A stretch of DNA of 64,000 nt from Xiphophorus maculatus. Lineage: Eukaryota; Chordata; Actinopteri; Cyprinodontiformes; Poeciliidae. The notes under the pieces are model-generated. The model searched no databases and was not told where the DNA came from. It worked only from the letters and a program-made list of their open reading frames with translations. Numbering within the stretch: position 1 is the first letter of the stretch; every line of letters begins with the position of its first letter. Shown in pieces: positions 3,759 through 38,600 of this stretch. The translations under genes and the position numbers were made by a program. The stretch covers positions 1,210,272 to 1,274,271 of the forward strand of contig NC_036446.1 in assembly GCF_002775205.1 (NCBI RefSeq), read 5' to 3'.

Positions 3759-3830
3759 GAGGCTTAGTCATAAGCCGGCAGCCTAAATCGGCTCTGGGAG
3801 AGGCGGTCGGTCCATGGAGGCGCATAAAGA
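3759..3830 (+). promoter_or_regulatory. Probable core promoter of PDE6-gamma copy 1
   Basis: A 16-bp block GAGGCTTAGTCATAAG at 3759-3774 is identical to one upstream of the second copy (7387-7402). Further on are an AAATCGGC element and a weak TATA-like CATAAAGA at 3823-3830, about 48 bp downstream of the block. In copy 2 a good TATA box lies at nearly the same distance. Conservation between duplicated promoters, with little else conserved upstream, is the main evidence. The AATCGG part resembles an OTX/CRX-type homeobox core, which would suit a photoreceptor gene, but that is inference. Confidence 0.6.
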
Positions 3831-3852
3831 CGCTGCTGAGGCGAAAAACCAG

Positions 3853-3938
3853 GAGAAAAGAGAGACTGTGAGAAGAAAGAAGACTCCTTCTTTGTCTCAC
3901 TGCTGCTTTTCATTTCAGTGACTAACCAACAGAAACAG
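3853..3938 (+). other. 5' UTR exon of PDE6-gamma copy 1
   Basis: The non-coding first exon ends at a donor (gtagga) at 3939. It contains a purine-rich tract followed by TCCTTCTTTGTCT (about 3861-3898), which is closely matched in the first exon of copy 2. The transcription start is placed about 30 bp after the TATA-like element, so the left boundary is approximate. Confidence 0.55.
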
Positions 3939-4492
3939 GTAGGAGGATTTTTATTATATCAAATTTAAACGTTTGTCATGTGTCACCATTTTTTTATTTC
4001 AACTGAAAGAGTGAATATATGAACTATTTAGAGTCAACGCTGAATGTAAAGAGGGAGGGAGAAACTAAATATTCTGCAACGAAATATTGTCAAACTAACA
4101 TAAGGATGGTAAAAAAATGAATAAAAATATAGAAAAACTTATTTAAAGCTGCAGTTTCTTCAGTTGGAGGACTGTTTATCTATATGTGCAAATTATATTC
4201 ACAGCTCATAAATTACAATGTTTTAAATGCACTTTAGAGTTATCAGTATTTATCTCAGTGTTTGGTCTCCTTCCAATCAAACTTTTTTTTTTTACTATAA
4301 TTTATCTAAAATAATATAAAAACATGCAATTAATAATGTAGTTTTGTCCAAATTAAGCTATTAAATATATTTAAACACATCTCCTACAATTACATCAACA
4401 GATGCATTCATGGCATGTGAAACAGGACAGTAAGGTCGTCTCCAGGGTGGTTGATGGTTTGAATCCGGTCTCTCTGTGATGCAGTCAGTAGG

Positions 4493-4888
4493 ATGAACTC
4501 CACAGCAGCAGCAGCAGCAGCAGCAGCAGCTGGACGCACCAAGTCGACTCCACCAGAGCTGGAGCAGAAGGAGAGCCGGCAGTTCAAGAGCAAAGCTCCC
4601 CAACGAGGACAGAAAGGGTGAGATGACCTTTCACCTCAGACAGGAAGTTAATGAACAGCAGCAGAGTGAGAAATGTTTCTGTCTCCCTGAAAACAGAGTC
4701 AACAGCCACGACCCAGCCATGCAAGGTCTGGATGGTGAGTTTACTGGAGGTTTCCCAGTGGGTGTGATGGTTTCTGTGAAACATTTAACTGGTTTTGTTG
4801 GTTTGTTGCAGACGCTGCAGTGGTTTGTCCCTGGGAGGAATACGGAGACGTGGAGCTGAGCGAACTGGCCCAGTTTGGAACCGTTTAG
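4493..4888 (+). CDS. Phosphodiesterase 6 inhibitory gamma subunit-like, copy 1
   Basis: Coding exons are 4493-4617, 4697-4734 and 4812-4888, giving 79 residues. PDE6 gamma blocks the catalytic site of photoreceptor cGMP phosphodiesterase until transducin pulls it away. The family is shown by the basic core SRQFKSKAP (human RQFKSKPP), the short middle exon ending MQGLD (human MEGLG), and the end VCPWEEYGDVELSELAQFG (human ICPWE...ELAQ(Y/F)G). The tryptophan used by transducin is kept. The N-terminus differs from PDE6G/H: the proline- and lysine-rich TPRKGPPKFKQ segment is missing and a run of nine alanines (GCA repeat, 4505-4531) follows MNST. The last residues are TV instead of II. Exon 2 begins at the acceptor 4483-4484, and this is the first ATG in it. 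Exon sizes of the last two exons are identical to copy 2, so the pair is a tandem duplication. It could be PDE6H or a third fish PDE6-gamma lineage, so no symbol is given. Confidence 0.85.
4505..4531 (+). repeat. GCA trinucleotide run coding nine alanines
   Basis: Eight GCA codons plus one GCT lie inside the first coding exon of PDE6-gamma copy 1. Copy 2 has ordinary sequence at this position, so the run arose after duplication or was lost from the other copy. Uninterrupted triplets suggest length polymorphism. Confidence 0.85.
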
Positions 4889-5083
4889 CCCTCAGGAAGA
4901 CTTCCTGCTGTTCCTGTTCCCCCTTCATCCTGAGGATGAGGAGCAGAAACATCACAGATCTACAAGCATAATAATAAATCATGAAGATGCATTCATGGAC
5001 TTACATATGAACAGAAATGTTTATGATCATCTGTTTACTCTTCAGAGCCTTACAAGTTCCTGATAGTTGATGCAGCTGCTTCC

Positions 5084-5089
5084 AATAAA
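5084..5089 (+). terminator. Poly(A) signal of PDE6-gamma copy 1
   Basis: AATAAA lies about 195 bp after the stop codon and is followed by a 22-bp perfect AT palindrome at 5099-5120. Confidence 0.6.
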
Positions 5090-5120
5090 AATATAATATA
5101 TAATATAATATTATATTATA

Positions 5121-6835
5121 ATCTGTCTGTTTGCAGCGGATTATTAAAATCTGTTGAATATATTGAATAAAATAGAGAAACTAACTCTGCATTTAATTTT
5201 CTCATTCATTCTGCTGTATTTCACACAAAACCACTAATATTTCTCAAAGTTTGTAATTTTAAATAAAATTATTTTAGTCCTTGAGTTTTGTTTCTTTTAG
5301 GATTATTATTACATTCAGGGAAATCATCCAGTCACCGAGTTTGAATATCATTGACTCTGTTGGTGTTTCTTCCTAACATAATATTTTTTTAAAGGAGAGA
5401 TAAAGTCAGAAATTTGGAGTCTTTTATTCAGTAAAGGTAAAAAAATTCCTCCTCCCCTTTAATTTCAGGAAAGTTAAGAGAAATTAAAAAATATTTTTAT
5501 GAAAGTCAAACATTTTCTCATTCTTTAACATGGAGGTTATATTTTCAGTCAGGAGTTACAAAAAGGAAGAAGGAACAAAGTATGTAAGGGTTTGGATCAA
5601 GCTCCCAGTTTTCTGATTTTATTTGACACATGGAAATGTTGCACCGGTTCAGGAAAGATGAGCTGCAGGAGCCTGAAGGTAAAGTTTGATCAGAGCAGAT
5701 TTTAAGGCTAATCTCAGAGAAACGGTGGTGGATTCACTGAGATTCAACCAGAATTTATCTCAAACAGTCCTGATGAAAAGCGTCTCAGTTGACTGGAGTT
5801 CATCAGATTACTGACAAACACCATCATGTCTGCTGTTTATGATTTTAACTGGCCATGTGGGAACAAAGGAAAGATCTTGTCTTTACCTGAAAACAAACAG
5901 ATTTCTCTTTAATCTTTCCAAACAGAATGACTATGTTCACTGTTGTTCTGACTGAACGTAGCATGTTAGCTTCCTTAGGCTTTCTCTCTACCTTATACTG
6001 ATTATTACACTAATCATCATCTGACTAGTAATGATTATTACATCACTAGTCAGACCTTAAAGAATAAATAAACCCCCAAACAACTTGCTTTGCAGATAAA
6101 CTCTATAAATGGTTCTTTAAGTTGCTATTTCTATGTTTCTGTACAAATTGTGACGTTTTTATGTAAATGTGTTTAATATTCGGCCTAAAACCATCTCAGT
6201 ACTGCAGTACTGCCCTCTGTGGGTTGACAGGTGGCTACTGCAGTTCATTTCTCCTATTGCAGCCCAGCTGTTGGTGTCTACATGACATCCCCACGTTTGG
6301 GTTTGAAACCATCTGACTGTAGCAGACTTGTGCATTATGCACAACTGTATATACTGTAAATATGATCCCTGACTAATTTCCAATATAATTCACTACTTTG
6401 TACTCAAGAACCACGTCTGTGTCTCATTAAGCTCATCTTCTTACATCAGCATCGATGCCATAAATTATGGCGAGTTAATCAGGAGATTCTTGGTAATGTT
6501 GCCATTTTTTGCAAATATTTCTAAAGAATTTTAGTTGCTGTTTTATTTTAGCAACAGTTGTTTCAGAGATGCTAACATTTTTAAAATTGTATTCTAATTT
6601 AAAGTCAAAAATACTTTAAAGATTTAGTACTGTTTATTTTATTCGTGCACACATTTAATCATATTAGAAATATTGCATCGCTCTGTTTGTGTGATGCTGT
6701 TTCTAAGCACCAGTAAAGCTGAACAGGTGATTTAGTTCAGGTGTCGGAAAGAGGATTCGGTAACACTCGCTCATTTGAAACAATCTATGAAGATGTTACA
6801 CACACACACACACACACACGCACACACACACACAC

Positions 6836-6872
<37 letters not shown>

Positions 6873-7386
6873 TGTATCTGCAGATGCTGTTGAAAGGTTG
6901 AGGCTGATTCACCCACCTGCAGATTTGGACATGATCCTTGTTATGCAACGTTTATCTGTGTGACTCATCCTGTTGTCCCGGAGCAGACGAGCCGTTCAGC
7001 CACGTCTCTGTCAGCAGCGCTTTATTTTAATCAATTAAAATGGAGAACAATTACGAGGTAAAACACCGGAAAATAAATATTTCTAATTAGTGCTTAAAGG
7101 CCTTTGAGAATCTAAATCAGAATGACTTTCACAGAACAGAAAACCATGAAAACACTCAGTTTAGAGACCAGTTAAGCTAACAGAGAGGAAGTCAGAGTAC
7201 CTGGAGAGAAACCCAGTGATCACAGGGAGAACTCCATGCAGAAAGACACCAGACTGGGCAGCAGTGTTCCCAACTGGCCTCCATGTTTCCCATGAAAGAC
7301 AAAAATCCTAATTTTATTTGTCTTTGAGTCTCTACATTTCATAAACAAAGAGTCCCAACAAGCTGCTGTGGGTATCTTGAATTAAT
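5121..7386. other. Intergenic stretch between the PDE6-gamma copies
   Basis: No supported gene. It contains AT-rich sequence and a (CA)n microsatellite at about 6798-6868. The open frame at 6775-6963 is largely a translation of that microsatellite and is not accepted. Confidence 0.55.
6798..6868 (+). repeat. (CA)n microsatellite with CG interruptions
   Basis: About 35 CA units run from 6798, broken by single CACG variants near 6819, 6839 and 6868. Confidence 0.95.
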
Positions 7387-7454
7387 GAGGCTTAGTCATA
7401 AGTCTTAATCGGCCTGAGCGCTGAGGGGAAGCTGATCCCTGCAGGGTATAAAAG
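7387..7454 (+). promoter_or_regulatory. Core promoter of PDE6-gamma copy 2 with TATA box
   Basis: The block GAGGCTTAGTCATAAG (7387-7402) is identical to that of copy 1. It is followed by CTTAATCGGC, whose reverse strand GATTAAG resembles a photoreceptor CRX/OTX site, and by a canonical TATAAAAG at 7447-7454. The spacing of block to TATA (about 44 bp) is close to the 48 bp seen in copy 1. The match ends sharply outside this region, which points to selection on the promoter. Confidence 0.7.
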
Positions 7455-7477
7455 CAGACAGAAGGACGAGGAGAACC

Positions 7478-7576
7478 GAGACAGAGACCGCAAGAAGAAA
7501 GAAGAATCCTTCTTTGTCTTGCAGCTGCTTCTTATCTGGTCTGCAGAGAGAAACATCTCTAACATCTGGAAAACAA
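7478..7576 (+). other. 5' UTR exon of PDE6-gamma copy 2
   Basis: The non-coding exon ends at donor gtaagt at 7577. The tract AAGAAAGAAGAATCCTTC (about 7494-7512) is shared with the copy 1 leader, again showing common origin. The left end is set about 30 bp after the TATA box. Confidence 0.6.
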
Positions 7577-7737
7577 GTAAGTTCATTCACTTTTCAATGT
7601 TTATAGTCAGTATCATATTTACTTACATTCTCTGTTCTTTCACATTATATAGCAGAATTTAACCAACTTCTTCTAATGTGCCACAGATTCCTGTTTACTT
7701 ATGAAATGTTTGGTTTTTCTGATGCACAGTGGAGAAC

Positions 7738-8111
7738 ATGAATGCATCATCAGTACCTGAGGCCGGTAAGCCCAGTCCAGCTGAGCTCAAGCAGAAGGAC
7801 AGCAGACAGTTTAAAAGCAAAGCTCCCAAACCTGGACAGAAAAGGTGAGGAGAGTCTTCCCAGCACTCAGCTTTCAGGGTTTTCTTCTCTTTCTAATCCA
7901 GTTTTTATTTCTCCACCAGCTTTGACAGCGCTCTGCCGGGGATGGAGGGGCTGGACGGTGAGTCTGAGGGTCAAATTCAGCCTGGATCCTGGTGGTGTTG
8001 AGCTGTTCCCTCATGCTGCTCTGTTTCCCTGCAGATGCTGCAGTGATCTGCCCCTGGGAGGAGTTTGGTGACGTAGAGCTGAGTGATCTGGCTCAGTTTG
8101 GAACCGCCTAG
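7738..8111 (+). CDS. Phosphodiesterase 6 inhibitory gamma subunit-like, copy 2
   Basis: Coding exons 7738-7844, 7920-7957 and 8035-8111 give 73 residues, against 83-87 in human PDE6H/PDE6G. The product should inhibit photoreceptor PDE6 and respond to transducin in the outer segment. It has the basic core DSRQFKSKAPKPGQK, the LPGMEGLD hinge, and the C-terminal ICPWEEFGDVELSDLAQFG, which matches the family closely. The two final hydrophobic residues (Ile-Ile in human PDE6G/H) are Thr-Ala. The N-terminal PRKGPPKFKQ segment of PDE6G/H is replaced by a short PEAGKPSPAELKQK. Introns fall at the same phases (2 and 1) as in copy 1. The start is the first ATG after the acceptor at 7728-7729. It is probably the less derived of the two copies, since it lacks the alanine run and keeps ICPWE and PGMEGL. 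Confidence 0.88.
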
Positions 8112-8442
8112 ATCCCAGTCAGAGCTGGAAAAGCATCCAGGAGGAGAAGAACGGGGTCTAGGCTGCAGGAGTCGTTTCACTGACCGACCGCAGCAGTTGA
8201 GCTATTGTTTGTTTTTTATTCATTTTTATTTATTTTTCAGCCAAACTGCAAGGTCAGAAACTCATCTCACTCAGTCATGTGATCGTACGATTTGATTTTA
8301 ATTGATGACATAAAATTTTACCAGATTGTGTTGAAATTACTTTATTCTACTTTGAAATCAAATCTTCACCCATGATTATCGTGTTATAATAATAATGGAT
8401 CCAAAGCTTTGCAAATGTCTGTGTAAACATGCAAATTTGTAC

Positions 8443-8448
8443 AATAAA
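8443..8448 (+). terminator. Poly(A) signal of PDE6-gamma copy 2
   Basis: AATAAA lies about 330 bp after the stop codon in otherwise non-coding sequence and is followed by a T-rich stretch. Confidence 0.5.
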
Positions 8449-8469
8449 TCAGTTTTTTCAGTCAGCTAA

Positions 8470-8979
8470 GTTTGTTCATCTGGTCTTAATGAGTAAAGAA
8501 AGAGAAACGAGTGAAGAGCAGCGTCTATCAGATGTCAGAATTAAAATGAAGAAGGTTTCTGTTCTGTTTACTTGTCGGGGTTTTGGGTTTTTACTGCACC
8601 GTCCTCCTTCACATCAGGATCGAATAGTTCCTGCACATTCGCAGCTTCTAGGATGCAACATGTTGAAAAGGTTTCAGTTTTAACCACAGAGGAATTTAAA
8701 AAGTGTTAAAATGACTCTCCAAAATATTCATGACTTCAGTGAATCATTATGAAGATCTAAAAATAACAGCAAATATCCAAACAGAGCAAATCTACTGAGA
8801 ATGAAACCTGATAAATGTGGATATTTAGCAGTTAATTTGTCTGTATCTGATGACAGAAATCACTCGCCGTCTATCGGACCGGCCCAGCAGAACTTCTGCC
8901 ACAGTAAGAGGTCCAGCTCCAAACTGAAAGGGGTTCAGAACAGTAGAGTTCATGAAGACGCTGCTCTCACTGCAAGGCA
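8470..8979. other. Non-coding gap between convergent PDE6-gamma copy 2 and the - strand GCAP
   Basis: The two genes converge here. No standard AATAAA for the - strand gene was found between 8450 and 8979, so its 3' UTR may use a variant signal or overlap the neighbour. The open frame 8429-8683 has no domain. Confidence 0.4.
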
Positions 8980-11091
8980 TCATGGGAGCTTTCTGCAGTT
9001 TTGGGTCACCCAGCCAGAGGTGTTGACGTCCAGATTGAGGAGGTCCATGAGCCACTGGTCCTTTTTGGCCCCTTCCATGAACTCAGTCAGGGTTATCTCA
9101 CCTGAGAGGACAGAGACCAAAAAGACTCTTGGTACCATGTCTTCATTTTTACAAAAGAACGAGTCACAACAAGCTGGTTTCAACTCATAAAGAAAAAAAT
9201 CGAATAATAATGTCTTCCTTGAATCTCTCTGGGTGATCAAACACAATCTGCAGCATCATTTTAATAATGTTGGTACATAAAAAATAGGACATCATCAAAC
9301 AGGAGTTATCAAGATAATTTGTCTCATTTATAGATTCATTACACATGGAGTGAAATATTTATCGTCTTTATTTCTTGTTATTTAGATGATTCTGGACCAC
9401 AGAGAATGAAAACCTAATATTTTTGTGTCAGAAAAGTAGAATATTGTGGAAAAGGTTACAGCACATTGATAGAAAGTTGAGTGGAAGGAAAAAGTGCATG
9501 AGCAACAGATAACTGGAGCCTTAAGAAGTTTGTCAAGCAAAATCCATTCAGGAATCTCACAAAGAGCAGGACTGAGGCTGGAGGTTAAATCAAGCAAAAA
9601 GAGTCCAGACCAAACAGAGAGGATGTACAGAAATAAACATTCAGAGTCTGAAATTTCTGAATAAATATAATTTTATTGATCTGATGTAATATTTAAATTT
9701 TCAGAGACTCTGAATTCTTTCTAAGCCAGAATCATTAACATTACAAGCAATGAAGGCCTGAATATTTCCATCTGTCTATGAATCTATACAATCTATGAGT
9801 TTCCTTTTCTAAAAGAAATGGTAAAAAATCTGTCATTTTTTCACCATGTTCTAATTTTTGGAGCTGCGCCTGAATTTGTTCTCCTACCGTCATTGTTGTT
9901 GTCAACGAGATCAAAGATCCGATCACAGATCTGGGACGGAGTCAGTCCGACCTCGCTCTTCTGAAGTTTGATTTTATGAAGAATCTGTCAGAAAAATGTC
10001 AGAATCCAGGAATTTTAACTCAACTTTCACAAATGAACAATTTTCATTAAAAGCAAAACTGAAGGATCTCAGCATCAAAATGAATGGAGGATAGTAGAAA
10101 GTAGTGTAATAAATGGACAAATAAAAATAATGAGTAAAATTTGATTCAAATAAATTAGGACTGGATGGAGAGAGAGGATTCGCTGCTGCTGAAGGAAAAA
10201 CCATCCAGTTCGCTTCGTCCAGAGGGTCCGAACTCTGCTTTACCCAACCGCTAACGTTTATCAAATGGACCAGTTCAACAATATGAAGCTAACTGGAAAA
10301 AGCTTCATTAAATCAGAAACCAGCCTATTGAGTAGCAGAGTTTCCCTTCATAACCCAGATTATGTGGTCTGCACATCCTGACCCCTCCGCCATGCCCAGG
10401 ACACCTGAGCCGTTGAACCACCTGATCTCCAGGTTAAAGGTACTTAGGATCACAACTGCTCAACACTTTTTCCGTCAATGGAGCCACATAACATGACCTT
10501 AGCCTCTTGCCCTAATCCCAGATTACCGGGGCACTAAAGTCCACCTTTAGGAGATTCCTGCTGTAGAAAAACTTGTTAATATTTCACAGTTTGACTCGTC
10601 ATCGTTGTATCTCTGCTCCCATCAGACGTTTCTGTCAATAACTTTTGGATAAAGCAGGTTTTCCTCACCCTTATGAGGAGCTTCACCTCGTTCCGGTCCA
10701 GCTTTCCGTTCCCATCCCGGTCGTACATCTTGAAGGACCATTTGAGATGATCTTCCAGATTTCCTCTTAAGATCAAGTTTAGGGCGGCGACGTACTCTAT
10801 GAAGTCCAGCGTGTTGTCCTGTGGATAAACCAGGCAGAGTTACACAAACCACACCATGGACCTGATTTCTGGCAGGCAGAGTTAACAATCCTTCACCTGG
10901 TTTGTGTCGAAGGAGCGGAAGATCGTCTCGAGGAAGAGGGAGTCCTCCGGCGATCTGCTCTGGACGCCGAAGATCTTCTTGAACTCGTGTAGATGCAGGG
11001 CGCCGCTGGGACATTCCCTCAGGAAAATGAGGCACATCCCCTGAATCTGAGCCACATCCTCCTCATCGCTGCTGCTTTGTTCTTGTCTCAT
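8980..11091 (-). CDS. Guanylate cyclase-activating protein (GCAP) lacking Gly2
   Basis: Coding exons on the - strand are 11091-10897, 10818-10669, 9984-9888 and 9101-8980, giving 187 residues. GCAPs are neuronal calcium sensors that switch on retinal guanylate cyclase when calcium drops after light. The first EF hand is degenerate with the typical ECPSG. The other three loops are intact: [24 protein letters not shown] and [23 protein letters not shown] and [14 protein letters not shown] are family signatures. The N-terminus is [12 protein letters not shown], so the usual Gly2 myristoylation site is absent. An in-frame stop lies a few codons upstream, so a longer start within this exon is excluded. 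Exon lengths after the first (150, 97, 122) equal those of the + strand GCAP at 13452-14763, with which it is head to head. The fish GCAPs are numerous, so the exact paralogue is not assigned. Confidence 0.88.
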
Positions 11092-11635
11092 TGCTGCAAG
11101 CTGCTTGGGTCAAAACGATTCCTGAAGATTTGACAATAATCAGGAGGTTCTGGCCGTCTGTCCGTTGCGAAGGCTCCGACTGACTCGTGTAAAGAGATCA
11201 GCACCACTGGCCCGTTTCTCCTGGGAGGCATGCTTCCCAGGCATTAAGCTCATTAGCTTGTTAAACTCTTGCATAAAATCCAACCTCTTGAAATAAATCT
11301 ACTGTTACCTCATTTGACTCGCAAATACACACATTTAGTAAAAAGTGATTTTTCATCATGAGGTTTGAAACTAATTGTTTATCCATTTTTTTTGACCCAA
11401 TGCAGATGTTTACTTTACAAATATCTCACCAACATTTCAGCCACACTTCTCAGACTTTTCATCACTTTCACACTCAGAGGAGGTCAAATAAAACCAAGGG
11501 AGGTTTCAGCAACCAGCAGCTTTCTTTGACTTGTCTGGAGATAAAAAGGACTGAAACTGAAATCTTTTAAATAATTTGTTTATGATATTCATTTTTTCTG
11601 TTTTGCTACAAATCTTTAGTAAACTCTGCAAGCCG

Positions 11636-11738
11636 ACGCCAGTGTTGGCCAGGGTTCACCTGTAAAAGAGATTTTTTTTTTTTTTATCTCAAAGGGATTT
11701 TCCTGGTGAAATACAGGTTAATAAATAATAATATATCA
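11636..11738 (+). repeat. Fragment of a dispersed fish repeat (CCAGGGTTCACCTG... type)
   Basis: The segment runs from a CCAGGGTTCACCTGTAAAAG motif through a T-run to CCTGGTGAAATACAGGTTAATAAATAA. A diverged reverse-oriented relative appears near 26455-26530. The arrangement resembles the 3' tail of a common teleost interspersed repeat. The family was not named from sequence alone. Confidence 0.45.
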
Positions 11739-11786
11739 TCAACCAGTCAGTTTTGATGGGGTAGAAGTCAGTCTGCTGCCCTCTGC

Positions 11787-11819
11787 TGACGTTTTTCTGT
11801 AATGCTGAGAAAAACGTCA
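11787..11819. repeat. Inverted repeat with TGACGTTTTTC arms
   Basis: TGACGTTTTTC (11787-11797) and its exact reverse complement (11809-11819) flank an 11-nt spacer. Both arms contain a TGACGT half-CRE. It could be a small MITE relic or a regulatory pair. Confidence 0.7.
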
Positions 11820-12550
11820 AGTCAAATCTACTTCCAGGCCACAAATAAATGAATAAATAAATATTATTATTTTGTGTTCTTTTATATACTCAGCTTGGAA
11901 TATTTTATTCCATTGACTGTGATATAGGAAGTGATGCAATTGTGTAAATATTTGAAAAGCTGAAGTTTTGGTGCTCGCAGCTGATTTAATCACTTTTAAT
12001 TAAAAATATTTAAACTTCTTGATCTGGAAGTTGATTGTGGATTTAATGCAAAATGTTAAAATCTTTCATACACTGTATCTTAGTCTGACAAGTTCCTGTT
12101 GCATCATTTTATTAATTAAAACATGTTTTTCTTCTCACCTCAACAGTAAAGGCTCTTCTGATTTCTTACCAACTTCCAGACTGGAAAATTTCGGTGTCTC
12201 TTTAAATCTAACGAGGCTGTCAGTGTGAGGATACGAAGATGAATAAAACTTTAAGTTACAGATTCATGTTGTGCTTCAGCTAAAAATGAACAAATGAATG
12301 TAGATTCCTGCAGTGAGGATGAGGGACTTTGACTGGACCGGGGAACTCATGGTTAACCAGATCAGCAGGTTAAAGATAACCTGCAGGGACAAGTTTCCTG
12401 TTTTTACTACAACTTATAAACCTGATATTCCAACCGATCTTCAAAACAGAGGAAGCTTTTAAAATGAGGAGAATTCATTAAAAAGACACACTGATGATTT
12501 TTCTCACCGCTTGACATTAAATCAGACCAAACCTTTTCAGCTTCGGACCA

Positions 12551-12585
12551 TTTTTATTGAAAATCTCTGTGATTTTCAATAAAAA
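12551..12585. repeat. Perfect 15-bp inverted repeat with 5-nt loop
   Basis: TTTTTATTGAAAATC (12551-12565) and its exact complement (12571-12585) flank TCTGT. It lies in the shared upstream region of the two GCAP genes. It would form a stable AT-rich hairpin in single-stranded nucleic acid. Confidence 0.9.
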
Positions 12586-13451
12586 TGTTATAAAGTGTTC
12601 TTCATATTCAGATTTTTACATTAGAAAATCTTAAATGATGAAACGTCTGAAAGGAAACCCAAAGTCACTCTAACAAATACCCAGGAAATGACTCCACATC
12701 TCTTCATTTAGATCAGAAACACTAAGAGATACGTTTTGCCTTTTGGTTCTGCTTTAATTGATTGTGGGATTTGATTATTGATAATAAAATCAGGCTGAAA
12801 AACAAACGAGGACATCTGGTGGGTGGAACAGGGAAGTGCGGGAAGAATGGAAAAGAAAACATTTCAACTGGAGATAAATACACCTGATCAAGTCTCTGTG
12901 TATATTAGAAACATTATGGGATATTTTAAGCTTCTCAGTCAGTTAAACTAATATTGATTTACAATTCAGCAATCAAACAACAAAGGTGTTAAACTCAGTT
13001 CTGAACATAAAGACACTGATAATGCAGCTCGTTCAGAAGCTGTTTATATCTTTGCGGCTCCAATCACAGGACTGTTTTCTGTTCTCCTGCCAGGTCAGCC
13101 TGGGTAAACCGCCTCCTCACACGCTTCATCGGATCAACACATCGACAAACACTCGCTTACGCTCTGGTGGATTCAGCCTTTTAATCTCTGCTCCTCTCCA
13201 CAGTCAAACACTCTGCAGATTAGTTCCCCAACTTTATTTCACTGCATGGTGGAGAAGGAGCAGCTAGGAAATATTCCAGAAGTTTCCTTAGAGGTTGGGA
13301 TTTGTTTGGGATATAACTGGATCTGTTCAGTAGGTGTTCCTGAAGTAGGAGAACCAGTTCTGGAAAGGTCCGAGCAGACCGATGGGATCCTGATGTTCCT
13401 GCTCCGTAATCCGACACCTGAGGGGATTCCTGCTGCCTCCTGCCTGAAGTC

Positions 13452-14763
13452 ATGGGTCAGGTCCAGGCCACCACCGATACAGAAGTGACTCTGCAGAACA
13501 TTCAGGAACTGTACCGGAAATTCACCGATGAATGTCCGAGTGGAAACCTGCACCTGCATGAATTCAAGAAAATCTTTGGCGTCAGCAGCAAATCATCAGA
13601 GGAGGAGGTGGCTTTCATTGAACTTGTCTTTAAATCCTTTGATACCAATAAGGTAACGTGTGTTTTGGTGTGGAAAAAGGGTTAGGATTCAGTGATCCAC
13701 AGAGCATCTCTCCTGGTTCTGTTTAGGACGGTAAGTTGGACTTCATGGAGTACGTGGCAGCCGTGAACCTCGTTCTTCGTGGAAAACTCATCGACAAACT
13801 GAAGTGGTCTTTTAAAATTTACGACAACGATGGGAATGGCTGCCTGACCAATCAGGAAGTGAGGCGTATTATCAAAGTGAGTCTTCAGTGCCAGGTTTTT
13901 AAAAAGTCTTATTGTTTCATGAAAAGCATTTGGAGCAGCTGGAAAGTTTAACATGAACCTGGTTGAGCTTTAAAGTAAACTATTGTGAACCCTGGAGTAT
14001 TTTAAGCAGCACAGAGAAGCTGTTTACTCCAGATAATCCTCCTCACTTTACAACCTGCAGGCTGTGAAACATGGTAGTAAATACAGTCATAAATATCTCT
14101 TATAAATGTTTGAAAATGTGGTTCTGAGGTTAAATAACTTCTGTTTTTTATTTGTTGTTTACACTTTCACTTCAGAGCCGTTGGCATTTTGCTTTTTGGA
14201 GACAAATTGTTGCAAAGCCGCCATCTAAACATCTCAAACTATGACCACAAAAACACTGTGCAACTTTTGGTAGAAACCAATTAAGAAATATTAGCAGGGA
14301 AGCAGGGACCATCTCTGCATCTCCATCAGCTTTTAGAGAAATCATAAAATAAATTAATTTGTAGAAATGAATGAACATATTCACAATTTTCGTCCAAAAT
14401 CATGGTAATGTTTGCTAAAATATTGACATAATCATGTTTCTTTTTATCCAGATCATCACCAAAATTAAATGGCATAATGATTCGAATGTGGAAACTGTCG
14501 ACTACATCTGCGACAGGATATTTGAGCTGACGGACAAAAACAAAGACAGTAGGTGAAAACATGGAGGAAGACGCTCCGTTGGAAATGAACAGTATTGTTT
14601 CCTTTCAGTGTGAACTCTTAAACTTTGTGTTGTGTCTGTAGGTCAGATATCTCTGGAGGAGTTTATTGAGGGAGCAGAGAAGGATCCGTGGCTCATGGAG
14701 CAGCTCCGACTGGACTTGGCGCCTAAAACCTGGTTCATTAAAACCCAGCAGAAGAAGAACTGA
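13452..14763 (+). CDS. Guanylate cyclase-activating protein (GCAP), + strand
   Basis: Coding exons 13452-13652, 13727-13876, 14452-14548 and 14642-14763 give 189 residues. It should activate retinal guanylate cyclase at low calcium in photoreceptors. It starts MGQVQATTD, so Gly2 is present and N-myristoylation is expected. The non-binding first EF hand has DECPSG. The calcium loops are [24 protein letters not shown] and DKNKDSQISLEE; the last has Ser instead of Gly at loop position 6. [15 protein letters not shown] and LKWSFKIYD are typical of the GUCA1 family. Introns match the - strand GCAP exactly in phase and nearly in size. The CDS is close to the usual family length of about 185-205. 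Paralogue assignment (fish guca1a-g) is left open. Confidence 0.9.
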
Positions 14764-17588
14764 GTCCTCCAGACTGCAGGAATATTCAGCCTTACCATCA
14801 ACAGACACACTGGACTAAACCTCAGCGGCCAGCCTTAATGTTCAGGTTCTGTTTTTCTGGGAAAAGGTTTTTCCCATTTTCCTTCAAAATAATCCATATT
14901 TGCCAACAGAACTTAGCATTTCAGCAGGTTGGCGCGTCCTGATAGAGGATCTTCAGCCGTTACTCTGGGAAAGTGGATTCTGTCTGCTGAGCCGTTGCTC
15001 TGCAGAGCTGGACAAACGTTTTGGATCGACACATTTTCATTTTTCAAGCAGAAGCCTTTTGATCTTCGCTCGGTCTCATTTAAAGCTTATTCCATTCCTC
15101 TCACTGTTTGAACTTTTGCTTCAACTTTTGGAAATTTCCAAGTTTGGATTAATCCAACAATTTGTCTGTAACTGATAACTACAGGCTTAAAAACACCTTT
15201 TACACTGTTGTGACCTCATATTTAAAAAAGTCTAAACAACCTTCCTCCAACATGGAAGGTTGATGTTTCTATTGTACAACTTTCTGAACCACATTTTGTC
15301 TCTTTTGCTGAACAGAAAACCCATACGAACACCAGAACCAGGAGTCTGTAGAACCCAAACTACAAGCTCTTAGGTTTGGCAGCTCAACTTTATTTTATTT
15401 AAGGATATTGTGCTTTTATTCACCTTCAGATGCACACATACTTTTCTGCAAACAGATAAATTAACATAAAAAAATTCAGAAATATTATAAAATATACTTT
15501 CTGAGATCAGTGACCAAACTGGACTCTGAAAACGTGTAGATTTTATTTCTGAAAAGATGATTATTATCTCATTTGTCATCAATTTAAATGGAAATAAGAG
15601 TAGAAAATAACTGTAGATATGCTTTAGATCAGGGGTGGGCACTCCTGGTCCTCGAGGGCCGGTGTCCTGCAACTTTTAGATGCATCTCTACTTCAACACA
15701 CCTGAGTCAAATAATGAGGTCGTTAACAGGACTCTGGAGAACTTGACTGCACTTAGGAGGAGATTCAGCTGTTGGATTCAGGTGTGTTGGACCAGGGAGA
15801 CATCTAAGAGTTGCAGGACACCGGCCCTCGAGGACCGGGAGTGCCCACCCCTGCTTTAGATGGTTTTCACTTTGGTCTGTAACTGTTTTTCCCCCTGTGC
15901 CTGTTTTAAAAAAATGATCACAACATGTTTTTTACCTGAAACGTTGCAAAGCTTCATTTAGAAAAATCTACAATAAAACTGGGGAGCAATTTGAGTCATC
16001 TTAGCTGCTCAAACTCTTCATTAGACTCCACTTTTACTGAAAAATAAATGAAACATTTGGAAAAATGACTAGTTTGATTCTCTTTACACTTGACTTTGTC
16101 ATCATTTATGGTTTTAATGGGTTTTTTCAGATTCCCATCAGCGATGTGTTAGTTTCTGTGTTTACAGGAATCAGACTGCAGATCCAAACGATCCTCCAGT
16201 CGCTTCATGCAGACCTTATGGGGGCTTTTACTCTATTGAATTAGACGGACTATTCTTAGCCTGTAAGGCTCCTTAACCGCCAGAATTATATCTGCTGCCT
16301 TCACACAGACGCCTTTTTACTTCCACGCTTATTTTTAAGATTAGGAGGAGAGATTAGAAGGCCAAGGAATCAGGCTGAGACAGGTTTCTTAGAGTGATGG
16401 AGCTGCGAGTGTTTCTGGAACATCAACTGCAATCAGAAACTCGATCCAGAATAATCCACTCACTGATCTACCAACCAAACGGAGCTTCTAATGAGGAGAA
16501 GAAAGACTACATTTACCCCAAAAGATAGTTTCACTCTAATGGTGCAGAAAAGCAAATAGTGTTTAATGATCAACATGGAAAAGAAGTTAAAAGCAAAGAT
16601 ATAAAAGTGTTGCAACCATAACTGCCTCATTTCAAAGGGAATAAATCCTGGAGAAAAAGTAAAAACAGGTTCCTCAGTTTGACTGCAGCTCCAACAGGAA
16701 TCTGTTGGTAACTACAAGTAAATGAGTCTGAGGGATTAGATAACCATTTTCAAAAGATGATCTGCAAGAAGAGTTATTGTATTATAAGCAAACAATGTAT
16801 TGTCTTTATAACTGGGAGCTGCTGATTCAAATGTTCAGATAATACCTGAACTATGACCCCAAATGAAAAGGGATGGACGGAGACCAGAGAGCAGAGGGAG
16901 AAGGAGGAAGTTCAAACCATCCTGTCCATCAATCATAATGGGTAAGGATCATATCACCGACCCAAACGTCTCTCAGTAGAACCGGGTGACCATCTCATTT
17001 CCCCCAGTTTTATAAATCAAAACTGCCTCTGACACTGCAAGGCAACCAGACTCACCAAGGTGCAGGACTGGAGGCTGAGGAAGGAAAATACATTATGAAT
17101 TCATTTGATATCTATTTTTTTTCTCCCTCGCCTTTAAAGATCCAAGAGGAATCGCTGATTCATTTTGTTTTTTGTACAATAAAATGTGAACAAATCTACT
17201 TACGTTTGAATTTTTAAAAGTAAAAAAACAAGGAGGCATGTTTTAAATAGTTAATAAAATAATAGTAATCCACTTTCTCATTGTGTACTCACATGAAAAG
17301 GAAGCAATTTCAAAATCTTTTTTGAATCTTCTTAGGTTGGAAGCAAAACCGGAAATGATATTCATGTAGTTCTCCTGGAAAATATTCCTTCTTTGATTCA
17401 TATTTTACGATAAGAACAAAAAAAAAATAGCAGGAAAAACAAATGACAACAGAACAGAAGACTTTATTCCTTACCTGTATTCCTGTGATATACATTTTAG
17501 ATCCATGCGAATGTAATTTATTGGAAATATCTCTTTTTGTAGCTGCTGATGGAAAAAGCGTGAAAAGGTTTTTTCTTCCTGTTCGAAT
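14764..17588. other. Intergenic stretch between the GCAP gene and golgb1
   Basis: No supported gene. The stretch includes the 3' UTR of the GCAP gene (end not fixed), a 224-bp hAT-like MITE at 15630-15853, and plain AT-rich sequence. Short open frames here show no domains. Confidence 0.5.
15630..15853. mobile_element. hAT-type MITE, 224 bp, with 8-bp target duplication
   Basis: The element begins CAGGGGTGGGCACTCC and ends with the inverted copy GGGAGTGCCCACCCCTG. The terminal inverted repeats are about 53 bp with only a few mismatches. It is flanked on both sides by the direct repeat CTTTAGAT (15622-15629 and 15854-15861). An 8-bp duplication and CAG...CTG ends are typical of hAT transposons. 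There is no transposase, so it moved non-autonomously. The near-identical ends and intact duplication suggest a fairly young insertion. Confidence 0.9.
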
Positions 17589-32600: not shown

Positions 32601-35600
32601 TGCTCCCCGCATCGCAGCTTTACCTCTAACAACCGCTCACCTTCTTAAAGACCACCTTACACTGTGACCATATAACCGTCCCACTGAGGAATAAGTTGGT
32701 GAAATGACGAGTGAACTGCATGTTAAACCCTTCTAACACAGGTGACGTTTGATGTAGATGAAGAAGAGCAGCCATGTTGGGTTTCTCAGGTGTGTTGGGT
32801 CGCTCATGTTTGGTGTGCGCTGGAGGGCGCCTCTGGCGGTGGTGGCTAACGGTGTGGCTGGCGTGCGTGGTTAACCACAGACATGCAGAGCTGACGCGTC
32901 ATCATTACTGAACGTGGTCTGTGGCACAAGGTGGAAATGAGCTGAAATGTTCTCCACAAAACCTGCTTCAGCCAAACTACAAGCACATTTACAAAGGAAA
33001 TAGAAGAAAAGAGAAATGAGGGTTTCATACCCTGGAACAGGTTAGAACCAAACTTCACTGTGTTTTACTGGGATTGAATATGATAAACCAACACAGTGGA
33101 TCATTGTAAAGGAGATGGAAAGTTATGGCTTCCTATGTGGCAACCTGGATTTAACTTAATCTGTTTTCTCTTTAACTCTGACCAGCTTTGGGTCGGGTTC
33201 CCCACGTTGGGCTCCAATTATGTAGGAACTGAAAACACATACTGCTAAACCATAATTAACAATCTCTTCTTTGCTTTATATACCTTCATATGATAGGAAC
33301 TTGGACGTCCAGACCAGAAAAATCTATCTAAAGCTAAATATTTTGGTCTGTTAAATCAGTTACAATTTTTATTCTAAGACTCAGAAGTAGCTTCATGCAA
33401 ACTGTACAAAAACACAGATAAATACTTAGAAATAACTGAGTTTCTCCCAAACTGCAGTAGATTAAAGTAAAGTTTCTTATTGTGCCACTAAAGTATCAGA
33501 TGGATGAATAAAACTGAGTAAGATCCTTTAGTTTTTACTCTTTATCTTCTATTTCAACATTAAAGAGAAGTTTGCCTTCCTTTGTAAACACAAACGTCTT
33601 TATGCTTTTAAGAAATGCTGCTTTCCTTTAGGTCTGTTTGCTGTGCTGAAATTAAGATCCTGTGATCTTTATCGTAATTTGACCTTTTTCTTAATTATCT
33701 TCTTTGTCACCACAGAATGAGATGGAGAAACTGCAGAGCCAGCTGGCCAGCGTGCGCGGTCAGCACAGCAGAGACACCGAGAAACATCAGCTGCTGGTCA
33801 ACAGCCTCAGCGAGCAGCTCAAAGGGTAACACTGCTAACGGCTCAGGTTTCAGACAGAAAATGATACAACTGCTTTCCATATGGCATGGGCTGGTGTCTG
33901 ATCACTTTGAATAAAAATAGTTCAGGTTTACATTACTACTATAGTTACTCCAGGAAGACAGAATGACCATAAAAAGTTAGTTTTTTTGTCTGTGCAGGCT
34001 GACTGACACCCAGGAGAGCCTGCAAAGTTCCCTGATTGAGAAGGAGAACATTCTGGCCAAGACGTCTGAGAAGCTGGAGCTCATCGACAGCCTTAGAGAA
34101 ACGCTGAGCCAGAAGGAGATCCAGGTCAAAGAGCTCTCCGACAAACTCCTCCAGACCGAGCACAGCGTAAGAACCCAAGCTTTGCTTTTCCTCTCAGGAA
34201 CCAAGGCGTCTCCTCAGCCTTCAGCGTTCATGTTTGGATTCGTTCTTACAGCTGGAAAACGTGACGAAGAGACGCAGCAGCTCGGAGAAGCAGTGCTCTG
34301 AACTGAAAACTGAAGCTGCAGACCTGATTCAGAAGCTGAGTGCGCTGAAGGAGAAGGTGTGTCCTAGCAGAGCAAAAAACCCTCCATGCTTATCGAGTCC
34401 TCTGATAAAGATGAATCAATTCATCTTTCATCGCAGCTGCACCATTTCATGCTGGGAAGTTTAGGAAAGTCCAGTTTGAGTATTTTCCTCCTCGCTGTCA
34501 GTCGCTGGTTCAACCTTCAGATGGTTCAGAGTTTTGGTTCTGTCTTCAGCTCAGCCCTCAGCTTGTCAGAGGAAGGTGGATTTAATTTGTTTTGGATTAT
34601 TTCCTGCTGAAAGGCCCAACGACCCATTATCAGCTTCCTGCCAAATGTTTTATTAATGTTTATGAAAAGAAGCCCGCAGCATCATGGCTCCTCCTGGAGT
34701 TTTAGATCTTCGTCTCCACATGTTTACGTTTGTAATGGTTGGGCGGAAACTTTTTATTTTTTAATTTTTTTTGCATTCCGGTCTGTTTTGGCAAATCTAC
34801 AAAATTCTGTTTTAAATTTACAATAACATAAAGATCACTTTGTTTTCTAAAATAGCCACATGTTTCACTAAAATATTGCATGCTCAGTTATTTTTGGAGT
34901 TTTTAATAAAAATGACTGCATTTCCGTGGCTCTCTGGTGAAACGGTTTGGACATCAATGATCTAACGGTTGTTATGGCGACATGGTGACACCAACATGTC
35001 GGTCTGCAGCTTTAAACTCCCTGATTATTCCTCTGCTCATAGATTTGGGCAGATTTATCCCAGGAGGAATTGTCCTAAGCTGATTCTAACACACTCAGCT
35101 TTGTTTGATTAAAATGTTTTCCAGTCTTTCCAACTTTGAAGAAAGTTTCAAATCTAATTTATGATCTACAAAATCAGGAAATTAATAGTTTAAACTTAGT
35201 TAAAACTGCCTTTTTTGTATTTATATCATGATTATTGCTTCAGTCATAAATTACAATTTTTCAAACTTTTCGATATGAAATGATGCAGCTGCTGAAAAGG
35301 AGCGTTTGATTTCATAAATCCTTTCGGAGGTTCCAATAAATGAGGATGAAGACGTAATTTTGCACAAATAATTTGCTAATTTTAGTGTTTTTGTGTCATT
35401 TCTTGAATGAATTGAGCATAATAACTTAAAACTTATTTTTAAAACCATTTTCAGGCCCAAAAGCAAGAGGTTACCATAGAAACGCTCCAAGCGGAGCTGG
35501 ACCAGACCAGTGAGGAGCTGGACAAGCTGAACACGACTCACCTGGAAGAGCGAGCCCAACTGATCCACGACCTCCAGAGCTGCGAGCGGGAAATCGACAG

Positions 35601-38600
35601 TCTGAAGGACGTTCTGCTGGAGAAGGACAGAGAGATATCCAGCCTGGCCGGGAACATGGCCGAGTACGGCGAGCAGCTCAGCCTGCTGAAGCAGGAGGTC
35701 AAGGAGAAAGAGGAGAGCCTGGTCCAGGTGGAGAACGCTCTGAGGAAGGCTGAGCGGGAAGCTACGATCATCAGGGACTCGCAGAACTCCGACCAGCAAA
35801 CCCTGAACGGCAAAATCACAGAACTGATGGGGAAGCTGAAGGATGCCGAGGCGGAGCTGGAGAAAACCAAAGAGGAAGGAGAATCTAAGGCGGCCGAGGT
35901 GGAGCATCTGCTGAAGCAGGCCGAAGGCGACAAGAAAACCATCCAGGAGCTGCGAGGCGACATCCAGAAGCTGAATGTGAGCCAAAGGAATCATCTCTCC
36001 GAATGCGAGACTCACATCTCCTCCCTGAAGGAGCAGCTCAACGTTTCAGCACAAAAGCTGCAGGAGTCCGAAGGAAAAGTCCTGCAGCTTCAGGACAAAA
36101 ACACGATCAGCGAAAAACTGCAGCAGGAGCTGAAGGATAAGGAACAGGTTCAGGAAAGGGAGCTGAAATCCTCTAAAGACGAGCAAAACACACTTTTAGC
36201 TCAGGTGGAGAAATACGGCAACCAGGTTGAGACATTATCCAGTAGATTAGAGGAGAAACTTGAAGCAATAAGATCTCTGGAAGAGCAAATCAGGACGGCA
36301 GATAAACTGGTGGAAGAGGAGAGGCAGAAGTTTGACTCAGAGAAGGCTAGGTTGAACAATGAGATCCAAAATAAATCTGAAGGCTTCTCCAAAGTCGAGG
36401 AGATCTTAAGAAGCACAGAGACTCAAAAACAAGAGCTGGAGGTAAAACTTAAAGGGCTGAAAGAAGAACTGGAGCTTCAGAGACGCCAAACAGACGAGCT
36501 CCATGAAAGAGTTACATCTGCTCTTCAGCTTAACGGCAGTCTGGAGGAACAGCTTCAGGTCATCACCGAACACAGAGACAAACTGCAGCTGGAAGCAAGC
36601 GAACGCATCAGAGCCGTTTCAGAAGTTACAGCCGAGAGAGATTCCCTCCAGATCCGAATATCTGCGCTGGAGACGCAGCTTTCTGACAGCAACAGAGTCA
36701 TTCAACGGTTGCAGAGAGAGAGAGAGGATTTAAACCAAGTCATAGAGCAAAGCAATAACTCCAACTCAGAGCTCCTGCTGGAAAAAACCAACGAATGTAG
36801 CCGTCTGCTGGAGGCACTTAGGGAGAAGGAGGAGGAGGCGAGCCGGATGAGGCTGCAGGTGGAGAAAACGGAGCGAACCGCCGCTGACCTTCAGTCCAAA
36901 ACCGAAACGCAACAAAGTCTGCTGACGCAGCTGGAGGAGACGCTGTCTCTGCTCCGAGAACAAGAGTCCAGTTTGAAGTCTGGGCTGATGGAGAAGGACC
37001 GGATGCTGAAACAGAAGGAAGAAGAAGAATCCCGGCTGGAAGCTGAAGCTGGATCCCTGAACGAGGAGCTTTCTGAGCTGAAGCACCGACTTAAAGAGCA
37101 GGAGGAAACGTGTCAAACCCACAAAGACCAACTGAACGACAGAAACCAGGCGGTGAAGTCTCTGAACGACCAAGTTAACGTCTTCAGAGAAAATACCAGA
37201 AAACTGGAATCTGAGGCGGAGTGGAGGAAAACTAAACTGGATGATTTAAATTCCCACCTCCAGACTCTCACCGAGGAAAACCAGAACCTCCGCTTCGCCT
37301 GTGAATCCAAAGAAAACCAGATTTCTCAACAAAGACAGACTGTTTCTGAGCTTACCCAACAACTGGAAGCATCTGCTGAGCAGAACTCCCAGATCAGGAC
37401 TCAGATTATCAATCTGACGGCTGATAATCAGAGATTACAGGAAGAGTTAGGGAAAAACAGCCAACTGGTTTCTGACTTAGCAGCCGAGAAAAGTTTCCTC
37501 CAGGAAAAAGCTTCCAGCCTCGAAAACCAAATCCAAGACAATCAGAAAACAATCAGCGCTCTGACCGATGAGAAAGAGGAGCTGAGGAAGATCCTGACTG
37601 AAAGCCAAGAGTCAAACTCTGCAGGTCTGCTGGAGAAGACAAATGAATGCGCTCGTCTGTCCAGATCGCTGCGGGAGACGGAGGAACACCTCCAGAGTTT
37701 ACAGGAGCAGGTCAGTCAGCTGAAAGACACGGAGAAAACCATCTCTGAGCAGAGAACCCAGCTGGAGGCCCGGCAGAACCAGCTGCTGCAGCTCCAGGAC
37801 ACCGTGTCCATGCTGCAGGAGCAGGGCTCGGTTCTGAAGGCCGCGCTGATGGAGAAAGACTCCACGCTCAACCAGACGGCAGAGGAATGTCGAGTTTATC
37901 AGAACGAGCTTCTGACTCAGAGAGAGCTGGCGTCGAAGCTGCAGGAAGAAGCCGAGTCAGTCAGGAGAGAAACGTGTGAGATGCGACAGCAGCTGGAGCA
38001 GAAAGAGCAGGCCTTCCAGGAGGTCACTCACCAGCTCCAGAGTCAGAGAGAGGAGCTGAAGAAACGCAGCGAGTCAGTGTTTTCACTGAGCAGTCAGATC
38101 GGAGCCATGAACCAGAGCGCCGCAGAGATGGAGGCGGAGATCTCCAGTTTAAAAGCTTCCCTGCAGAAACTCTCTGCAGAGAATGAGCAGCAGCTGCAGC
38201 AGAGCGAGGCCGAGGTGACCGACCTGAGGGACGGCATGCAGGCGCTGACGGACCAGAACTGCAGGCTGAAGGCTGAGCTGCAGAAAATGGCGAGCGAGCT
38301 GGAGCTCATCAGCAGACTGAGAGCAGAAATCTCAGACAGAGAGAAGGAGCTCAGAAATGTCCAGTCAGAGGCGGAGACGATGAGATCCACCATGCAGGAA
38401 AAGGATGAAAACCTGGAGAAACTGCAAGCTTTTATCCAGCAGCAGGACCAACAGCTGAAGCAGATCAAAGATCACAACGACACTCTGCAAAAACAGCTGT
38501 CAGAGCTGCAGGAGACGACCTCCAACCTCAGAGGTCAGGTAGAAACTCTGACCTCAGAGTCAGGTGTGCTGAAAGACGCCCTGGAGAAGAAGGAGCAGTT

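Follow-up and report, generated by a model that had tools for sequence, protein, structure and literature searches.

The DNA analysed here is a window of 64,000 nucleotides from Xiphophorus maculatus (contig NC_036446.1), and its positions 3759-14763 hold two genes for PDE6-gamma-like proteins, named gamma-A and gamma-B, followed by two genes for calcium sensors of the GCAP type, named GCAP-R and GCAP-S. The explanation that we favour, with a probability of about 0.47, is that two local duplications, both at a single site of the old phototransduction paralogon, would have produced these four apparently functional genes for phototransduction-type regulators, with the gamma genes belonging to the PDE6I branch; it was built from the sequence of this one species. 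The gene order is gamma-A (+), gamma-B (+), GCAP-R (-) and GCAP-S (+), i.e. a tandem gamma pair, then a head-to-head pair of the GCAP type and then a golgb1-like gene. Compact introns and the gene content fit a teleost. Each of the four genes is complete, as rebuilt from its splice sites, which are all of the GT-AG type, and its frame is open:

4493-4617, 4697-4734 and 4812-4888 (+ strand): coding region of PDE6gamma-A, 79 amino acids, with a 9-Ala tract and the C-terminus GTV (PF04868, E = 4.6e-24)

7738-7844, 7920-7957 and 8035-8111 (+ strand): coding region of PDE6gamma-B, 73 amino acids, with the C-terminus GTA (PF04868, E = 9.7e-25)

11091..10897, 10818..10669, 9984..9888 and 9101..8980 (- strand): GCAP-R, 187 amino acids, coding exons of 195, 150, 97 and 122 nt, starting with MRQ and with Cys at the Tyr22 position

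11092..13451 (no strand): intergenic region between the divergent GCAP genes, 2.36 kb

13452-13652, 13727-13876, 14452-14548 and 14642-14763 (+ strand): GCAP-S, 189 amino acids, coding exons of 201, 150, 97 and 122 nt, starting with MGQ

The preliminary description of this region had placed two PDE6-gamma-like and two GCAP-type genes within 11 kb, and this was confirmed by the intact frames, the splice sites and the family matches obtained with Pfam and phmmer. Its statement that nothing lies between them agrees with the list of open reading frames (ORFs), in which no other gene-like frame was seen on reading between 4.5 and 14.8 kb, a reading that was not a systematic search. Between the stop codons of gamma-B and GCAP-R there are 868 bp. 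When the window was searched by tblastn (E <= 1), using the four cluster proteins, rod gamma, bovine GCAP2 and human GCAP3 as queries, no further PDE6-gamma or GCAP copy was found. Under random placement, an immediate gamma/GCAP neighbourhood would arise with a probability of about 4 x 2 x 6/25,000 = 0.002, a value in which ~4 gamma loci, ~6 GCAP loci and ~25,000 genes were assumed and the family pair was chosen post hoc. The members belong to known families, and the apparent novelty seems to reside in the close linkage and in the unusual residues. No description of PDE6-gamma and GCAP genes as neighbours was found among the matches listed in a literature search made mostly by title, and annotation of these four genes may already exist in genome databases.

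Both gamma proteins exceeded the gathering score of Pfam PDE6_gamma (PF04868; 84.8 bits for gamma-A and 87 bits for gamma-B, with a cut-off of 25). Their genes contain three coding exons each, with the introns at matching places and both coding introns present, and both would start with a non-coding first exon. Coding exon 1 of gamma-A contains a CAG array of 9.3 copies (4503-4530), which is translated in the GCA frame and encodes the nine-alanine tract near the N-terminus. The two proteins are identical at 48 of 73 aligned residues, and homology is found along the coding exons and the promoter. Judging from the substitution rates (dS 1.57 versus dN 0.186, dN/dS ~0.12), the pair is under purifying selection. 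This ratio, together with four intact reading frames with their splice sites and a window devoid of any N, makes it very improbable that the cluster represents an assembly artefact or a set of pseudogene relics, which is what the odd residues at functional positions and the poly-alanine stretch of gamma-A might otherwise suggest.

Identity of the two proteins to the mammalian gammas amounts to 43-53%, using partly provisional reference sequences: gamma-A matched rod gamma at 34 of 79 aligned residues and cone gamma at 33 of 66, and gamma-B matched them at 34 of 73 and 36 of 68, respectively. The Lys29 position is occupied by Glu in both copies. Between residues 24 and 48, where the canonical proteins are basic without acidic residues (10 basic and 0 acidic in rod gamma, 11 and 0 in cone gamma), the counts were 7 and 3 in gamma-A and 8 and 2 in gamma-B. 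The C-terminal tip reads GTV in gamma-A and GTA in gamma-B in place of GII, and both thereby depart from the canonical PDE6G/PDE6H tip, which is hydrophobic, lies at the catalytic pocket and has letters that we take to be II; we also assume that the isoleucine pair itself is important. In addition, the glycine-rich stretch lacks one residue relative to rod and cone gamma. This stretch (55-62) is reported to bond to the PDE6 catalytic dimer (PMC10838916), and the C-terminus is described as the key inhibitory domain of gamma, forming with the central basic region its two grips on PDE6 (PMC6046437). The simplest reading is that gamma-A and gamma-B would be inhibitory subunits with a looser grip. 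Most likely as members of the PDE6I branch, they would sit on the PDE6 catalytic dimer and hold it more weakly than PDE6G/H do, because of the acidic residues in the central basic stretch and the loss of the two isoleucines from the C-terminal plug.

PDE6I, the third of the 2R paralogues described for the inhibitory subunit of PDE6 (PMC4906994), is the most likely branch for this pair and our first choice, because both coding introns are kept and both copies have Glu in place of Lys29. The change of Lys29 to Glu is a notable one named for zebrafish pde6i (accession XM_003198119.3 in that paper), and the last coding intron of PDE6H was lost in the teleosts studied except zebrafish and cave tetra (PMC4906994), whereas gamma-A and gamma-B keep it. 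Several points weigh against this assignment. As a marker, K29E is a single residue. Among the teleosts of PMC4906994, PDE6I was reported from zebrafish and cave tetra only. Gar PDE6I is located there on LG13 with SSTR5 (a place that PMC6170504 took over from that paper), and nothing here ties golgb1 to it. The functional regions of the zebrafish proteins are described as highly conserved except for named exceptions, K29E being that of pde6i, and altered tips are thus no PDE6I trait reported there. Finally, that study found identities of at least 64% between human and zebrafish gammas and of 72-81% between lamprey and human, and the 43-53% obtained here lies below that human-zebrafish floor.

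The pair might instead be a diverged PDE6G copy, transposed or locally duplicated, and its place next to the GCAPs would then be due to a genome rearrangement that happened by chance in one fish lineage. We regard this as credible, though less likely. The restricted occurrence of PDE6I among the teleosts studied in PMC4906994, the poor identity to mammalian gammas and the altered tips, not reported for pde6i, would all fit it, and local duplications of PDE6G and PDE6H have been reported in teleosts; it is opposed by the Glu at position 29 of both copies and by the chance adjacency of ~0.002, calculated with assumed gene numbers. A retrocopy origin of the gamma genes was rejected, since introns are retained: the two coding introns and a likely intron in the 5' untranslated region (5' UTR) exclude it, though not a transposition at the DNA level.

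Regarding the two calcium sensors, the best match in the PDB was GCAP2 (1jba) for both, with E = 5.2e-52 for GCAP-S and E = 3.7e-56 for GCAP-R (phmmer; 40 distinct sequences and 39 sequences, respectively, at E <= 1e-12). As read on the sequences, both have the marks of the GCAP/GCIP family, namely four coding exons, a CPSG-type EF1 and EF2-EF4 loops that fit the Ca-binding rule of PMC6170504; four exons are also given for guca genes in PMC10061024, a study without teleosts. The motif [KR]DxW[LV]M...W is present near both C-termini, like in bovine GCAP2. The two proteins are identical at 101 of 187 aligned positions (dN 0.404; pS 0.766, at which synonymous sites are saturated). In a tree with eight reference rows they formed one clade with a support of 98/97, and joining either of them alone with bovine GCAP2 was disfavoured (approximately unbiased (AU) test, p 0.035 and 0.017). 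GCAP-R and GCAP-S are thus sisters; they appear nearest to GCAP2, and a GCAP2/GCIP-like Ca sensor gene would have been duplicated to give the divergent pair.

The two sensors differ at positions related to cyclase activation. GCAP-S starts with MGQ and has the N-terminal Gly2 for myristoylation expected of an activating GCAP. GCAP-R starts with MRQ, and in the alignment the start codons of both genes coincide; therefore no myristoylation is possible from that start and, lacking Gly2, the protein was not classed as an activating GCAP. Changes at H19, Y22, M26, F73, V77 and W94 of GCAP1 are reported to abolish activation (PMC8395740). At these interface positions GCAP-S has Q, Y, T, F, V and W (Q, Y, L, F, V and W in bovine GCAP2), and GCAP-R has Q, C, L, F, V and W, having lost Tyr22, a residue present in each of the four other GCAPs of the comparison. 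F73, V77 and W94 are retained by both. We infer that GCAP-S retains the elements by which membrane guanylyl cyclase is controlled in response to Ca, and that GCAP-R would be a non-acylated, probably poorly activating form, which may act as a GCIP-like competitor.

In the tree, the placement of the pair with GCAP2 received a support of 62/29, and the alternative placements outside all GCAPs (AU p 0.367) and with GCAP1/3 (AU p 0.376) were not rejected. GCIP is reported to branch outside all GCAPs and to have been lost from amniotes (PMC6170504) and, because the outside placement has that AU p of 0.367, a GCIP identity of the pair is possible. Both EF-hand genes would then encode GCIPs that do not stimulate the cyclase and that compete with GCAPs at high Ca, and the cluster would contain two kinds of brake instead of both arms of the cGMP cycle. 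We consider this a serious possibility, if one that falls short of our preference. Apart from the unrejected position outside (GCAP1/3, GCAP2), it would account for the absence of Gly2 and Tyr22 from GCAP-R, given that lamprey GCIPs also lack Gly2 (PMC6170504), and it fits what is reported of GCIP, i.e. the amniote loss and a cyclase that is not stimulated at low Ca (PMC4040495). Conversely, GCAP2 is the best PDB match of both proteins, in a comparison made without any GCIP sequence, and GCAP-S retains Gly2, Tyr22, Phe73, Val77 and Trp94. That the GCAPs of this cluster stimulate cGMP synthesis, as had been stated at the outset, is hence an assumption, both because the pair may be of the GCIP branch and because GCAP-R lacks Gly2 and Tyr22. 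The contrast drawn there with the human chromosomes may be one between non-orthologues, because PDE6I and GCIP are both reported lost from amniotes.

In the tandem duplication proposed here, the gamma gene would have been copied whole, with its promoter and its non-coding first exon. The 5' parts of both genes are as follows, the introns being predicted from GT...AG splice signals only:

3759..3908 (+ strand): promoter core of PDE6gamma-A and part of its non-coding exon 1, with the 16-mer GAGGCTTAGTCATAAG (3759-3774), TAAATCGG, a CATAAA box (3823) and a purine-rich 5' UTR

3939..4484 (+ strand): putative 5' UTR intron of PDE6gamma-A

7387..7530 (+ strand): promoter core of PDE6gamma-B and part of its non-coding exon 1, with the same 16-mer (7387-7402), TAATCGG (7406) and TATAAA (7447)

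7577..7729 (+ strand): putative 5' UTR intron of PDE6gamma-B

These two promoters share a block of ~150 bp (3759..3908 versus 7387-7530), whose first base, 3759, is also the start of the stretch first described; the alignment score was 68, and the best of 200 dinucleotide shuffles scored 38. When ten segments of the gamma genes were compared, four exceeded all 200 mononucleotide shuffles (promoter core plus exon 1, the upstream 0.6 kb and coding exons 1 and 3). The upstream 0.6-kb segment (32 versus 31) overlaps the promoter core and is not independent, because its match runs through the same 16-mer. The other six segments did not, their scores being reached by 37 of 200 shuffles for the 5' UTR intron, 68 and 116 for the coding introns, 126 for the 3' flank, 32 for the distal upstream segment and 19 for the 38-bp coding exon 2. 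Non-coding sequence elsewhere has thus decayed to chance and therefore the promoter block looks as if held by selection, so that shared control within the gamma pair is well supported by the alignments. Scans for short elements were weak: the 16-mer (<= 3 mismatches) matched the two gamma copies only, both exactly, and at least 2 matches were obtained in 6 of 100 shuffles; its 12-bp core (<= 2 mismatches) gave 4 matches with 6.25 expected. Consequently, the promoter claim rests on the block alignment and on its contrast with the decayed introns. A MARE-like site, TGACT[AC]AGC, occurs twice in the 64 kb, only in the two gamma promoters, and counts once because the two are copies of one ancestral site; we take NRL/MAF to be the appropriate name for it.

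This block does not extend to the sensors. In none of four comparisons between gamma and GCAP promoters did the score exceed the best of 60 shuffles (one tie), and when non-coding sequences of GCAP-R and GCAP-S were compared, between 9 and 65 of 200 shuffles attained the score in each of the five cases, with no block common to the two halves of the intergenic region. One promoter common to the four genes was therefore rejected at the level of alignable sequence. The shared retinal control raised in the preliminary description is thus supported within the gamma pair, as a conserved promoter, and has no support from the sequence across the two families. The closeness of the four genes would be mainly an inherited position, with a conserved promoter common to the two gamma genes only.

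Individual motifs were also inspected. TAATCGG in gamma-B corresponds to seven of the eight bases of TAATCGGT, the reported consensus of the pineal factor Bsx (PMC6779754), and gamma-A has TAAATCGG at the same place; this likeness is a lead only, because the motif is not enriched in the 64-kb window (4 versus 2.99 expected). The pineal element PIPE was rejected (2 matches with 2 mismatches versus 5.9 expected). TAATC[CT] (PIRE/CRX-type) is found at 13182, 13217 and 13407, i.e. three times in the 500 bp upstream of GCAP-S versus 0.60 expected, a modest and post hoc excess that might represent a CRX/OTX input; the corresponding 500 bp of GCAP-R contain no such site, with 0.60 expected there too.

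It could still be argued that the four genes form a co-regulated unit under a single distal enhancer or chromatin domain, active in one photoreceptor type. The genes are functionally related and compact, a regulatory advantage of the paralogon is suggested in PMC6170504, and the sites near GCAP-S and the TAATCGG of the gamma-B promoter point in the same direction. We consider it unlikely, in view of the missing block between gammas and GCAPs (0 of 4 comparisons), the lack of TAATCGG enrichment in the window and the TAATC counts near the other genes (no site for the gamma-A promoter, where 0.65 would be expected, and a single one upstream of GCAP-R, where the expectation is 1.09). A further reading is improbable in our estimate: the cluster would be a module dedicated to cGMP control in a photoreceptor of a non-standard kind, be it pineal, parapineal or a subtype in the retina, made of two loosened gammas under their own conserved promoter (gamma-B with TAATCGG) and divergent cyclase sensors, one of them a non-acylated competitor, and surviving as a 10-kb ancestral fragment. 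Under the favoured explanation, expression in photoreceptors or in the pineal would likewise be expected.

With regard to the origin of the linkage, 36 phototransduction genes of 14 families, including the GCAPs and PDE6G/H/I, have been assigned to one paralogon, for which a regulatory advantage was suggested (PMC6170504). The window could be a close-range relic of that ancestral neighbourhood or the result of a later rearrangement. The ancient neighbourhood put forward in the preliminary description is hence a live explanation, although the published link is on a megabase scale. Inherited proximity followed by local duplication is the origin that we prefer, because both families had already been tied to the paralogon region; at this site the paralogon would thus be the probable source.

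Outside the cluster, an open coiled-coil frame of 3571 codons (35443-46158) and a membrane-anchor exon (49032-49211) with a sub-threshold CASP_C match (19.7 bits versus a cut-off of 28) appear to fit golgb1/giantin. To its right, no gene was recognised by eye among the open frames between 49.2 and 64 kb, where no systematic search was made, and the GC-rich open stretch at 55.9-56.4 kb had no Pfam match. On the left, the 3' coding end of a + strand gene (...QQAGGNPYADQGAPLLVSEVQLSKTRVRK*) lies at 1774-1930, with no Pfam or NCBIfam match; from the human gene order we would presume IQCB1 at this place. A short palindromic MITE-like element (CTCGAGGGCCGGTGTCCTGCAACTTTTAGATG... plus an inverted end) was spotted by eye at 15640-15855, and (CA)n/(TG)n microsatellites are present at 6798-6869, between gamma-A and gamma-B, and, according to the ORF lists, at ~20.4-20.65 kb and ~54.1 kb. 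No Rfam match reached the gathering score, and a single scan of viral contigs, performed with GCAP-S only, gave no confirmed match.

If gar, zebrafish or bowfin share this arrangement, it would provide a gene-to-gene link between two families that are joined in PMC6170504 only by megabase-scale reconstruction, and a fine-scale test would become possible for the idea that the genes of phototransduction originated near one another. With their divergent tips, the gammas, like the GCAP that is not acylated, are natural experiments that bear on how tight the control of PDE6 and guanylyl cyclase has to be. They also carry a warning, since human-based names (PDE6G/H, GUCA1A/B/C) can mask branches that are reported lost in amniotes.

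Comparison with known systems places the cluster as follows. Like PDE6G and PDE6H, gamma-A and gamma-B have PF04868, the RQFKSK core and a C-terminal block of the CPWE...ELAQFG type; they differ in the absence of Thr22-Pro23, in K29E, in the changes of Leu76 to Val and of Ile86-Ile87 to Thr-Val or Thr-Ala, and in the 43-53% identity. With PDE6I they share the family and the Glu at the Lys29 position seen in zebrafish pde6i, which is reported as a single gene whose expression in the adult eye is extremely low, whereas here there is a tandem pair beside GCAP genes, with altered C-terminal tips not reported for pde6i and an identity to the human gammas under the human-zebrafish floor. The sensors resemble GCAP2 and its isoforms GCAP2-A / GCAP2-B (zGCAP7) in the best PDB match, the CPSG-type EF1, the three binding loops and, as in gar, the local pairing (PMC6170504). 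Unlike GCAP2, GCAP-R lacks Gly2, and the gar GCAP2-A/B pair is arranged head-to-tail on LG27 and the medaka pair lies ~5 Mb apart (PMC6170504), whereas here the genes are head-to-head, 2.4 kb apart and beside gammas. GCIP, of which sequences from Xenopus, zebrafish and lamprey are mentioned in PMC6170504, is likewise of the EF-hand family, and its lamprey forms lack Gly2 like GCAP-R, but it is reported there to have no remaining 2R duplicates and here a pair is found. Finally, the phototransduction paralogon of Lamb and Hunt (PMC6170504) also assigns PDE6G/H/I and the GCAPs to a common ancestral region, over megabases and in separate figures, whereas in this window the two families are 868 bp apart from stop codon to stop codon.

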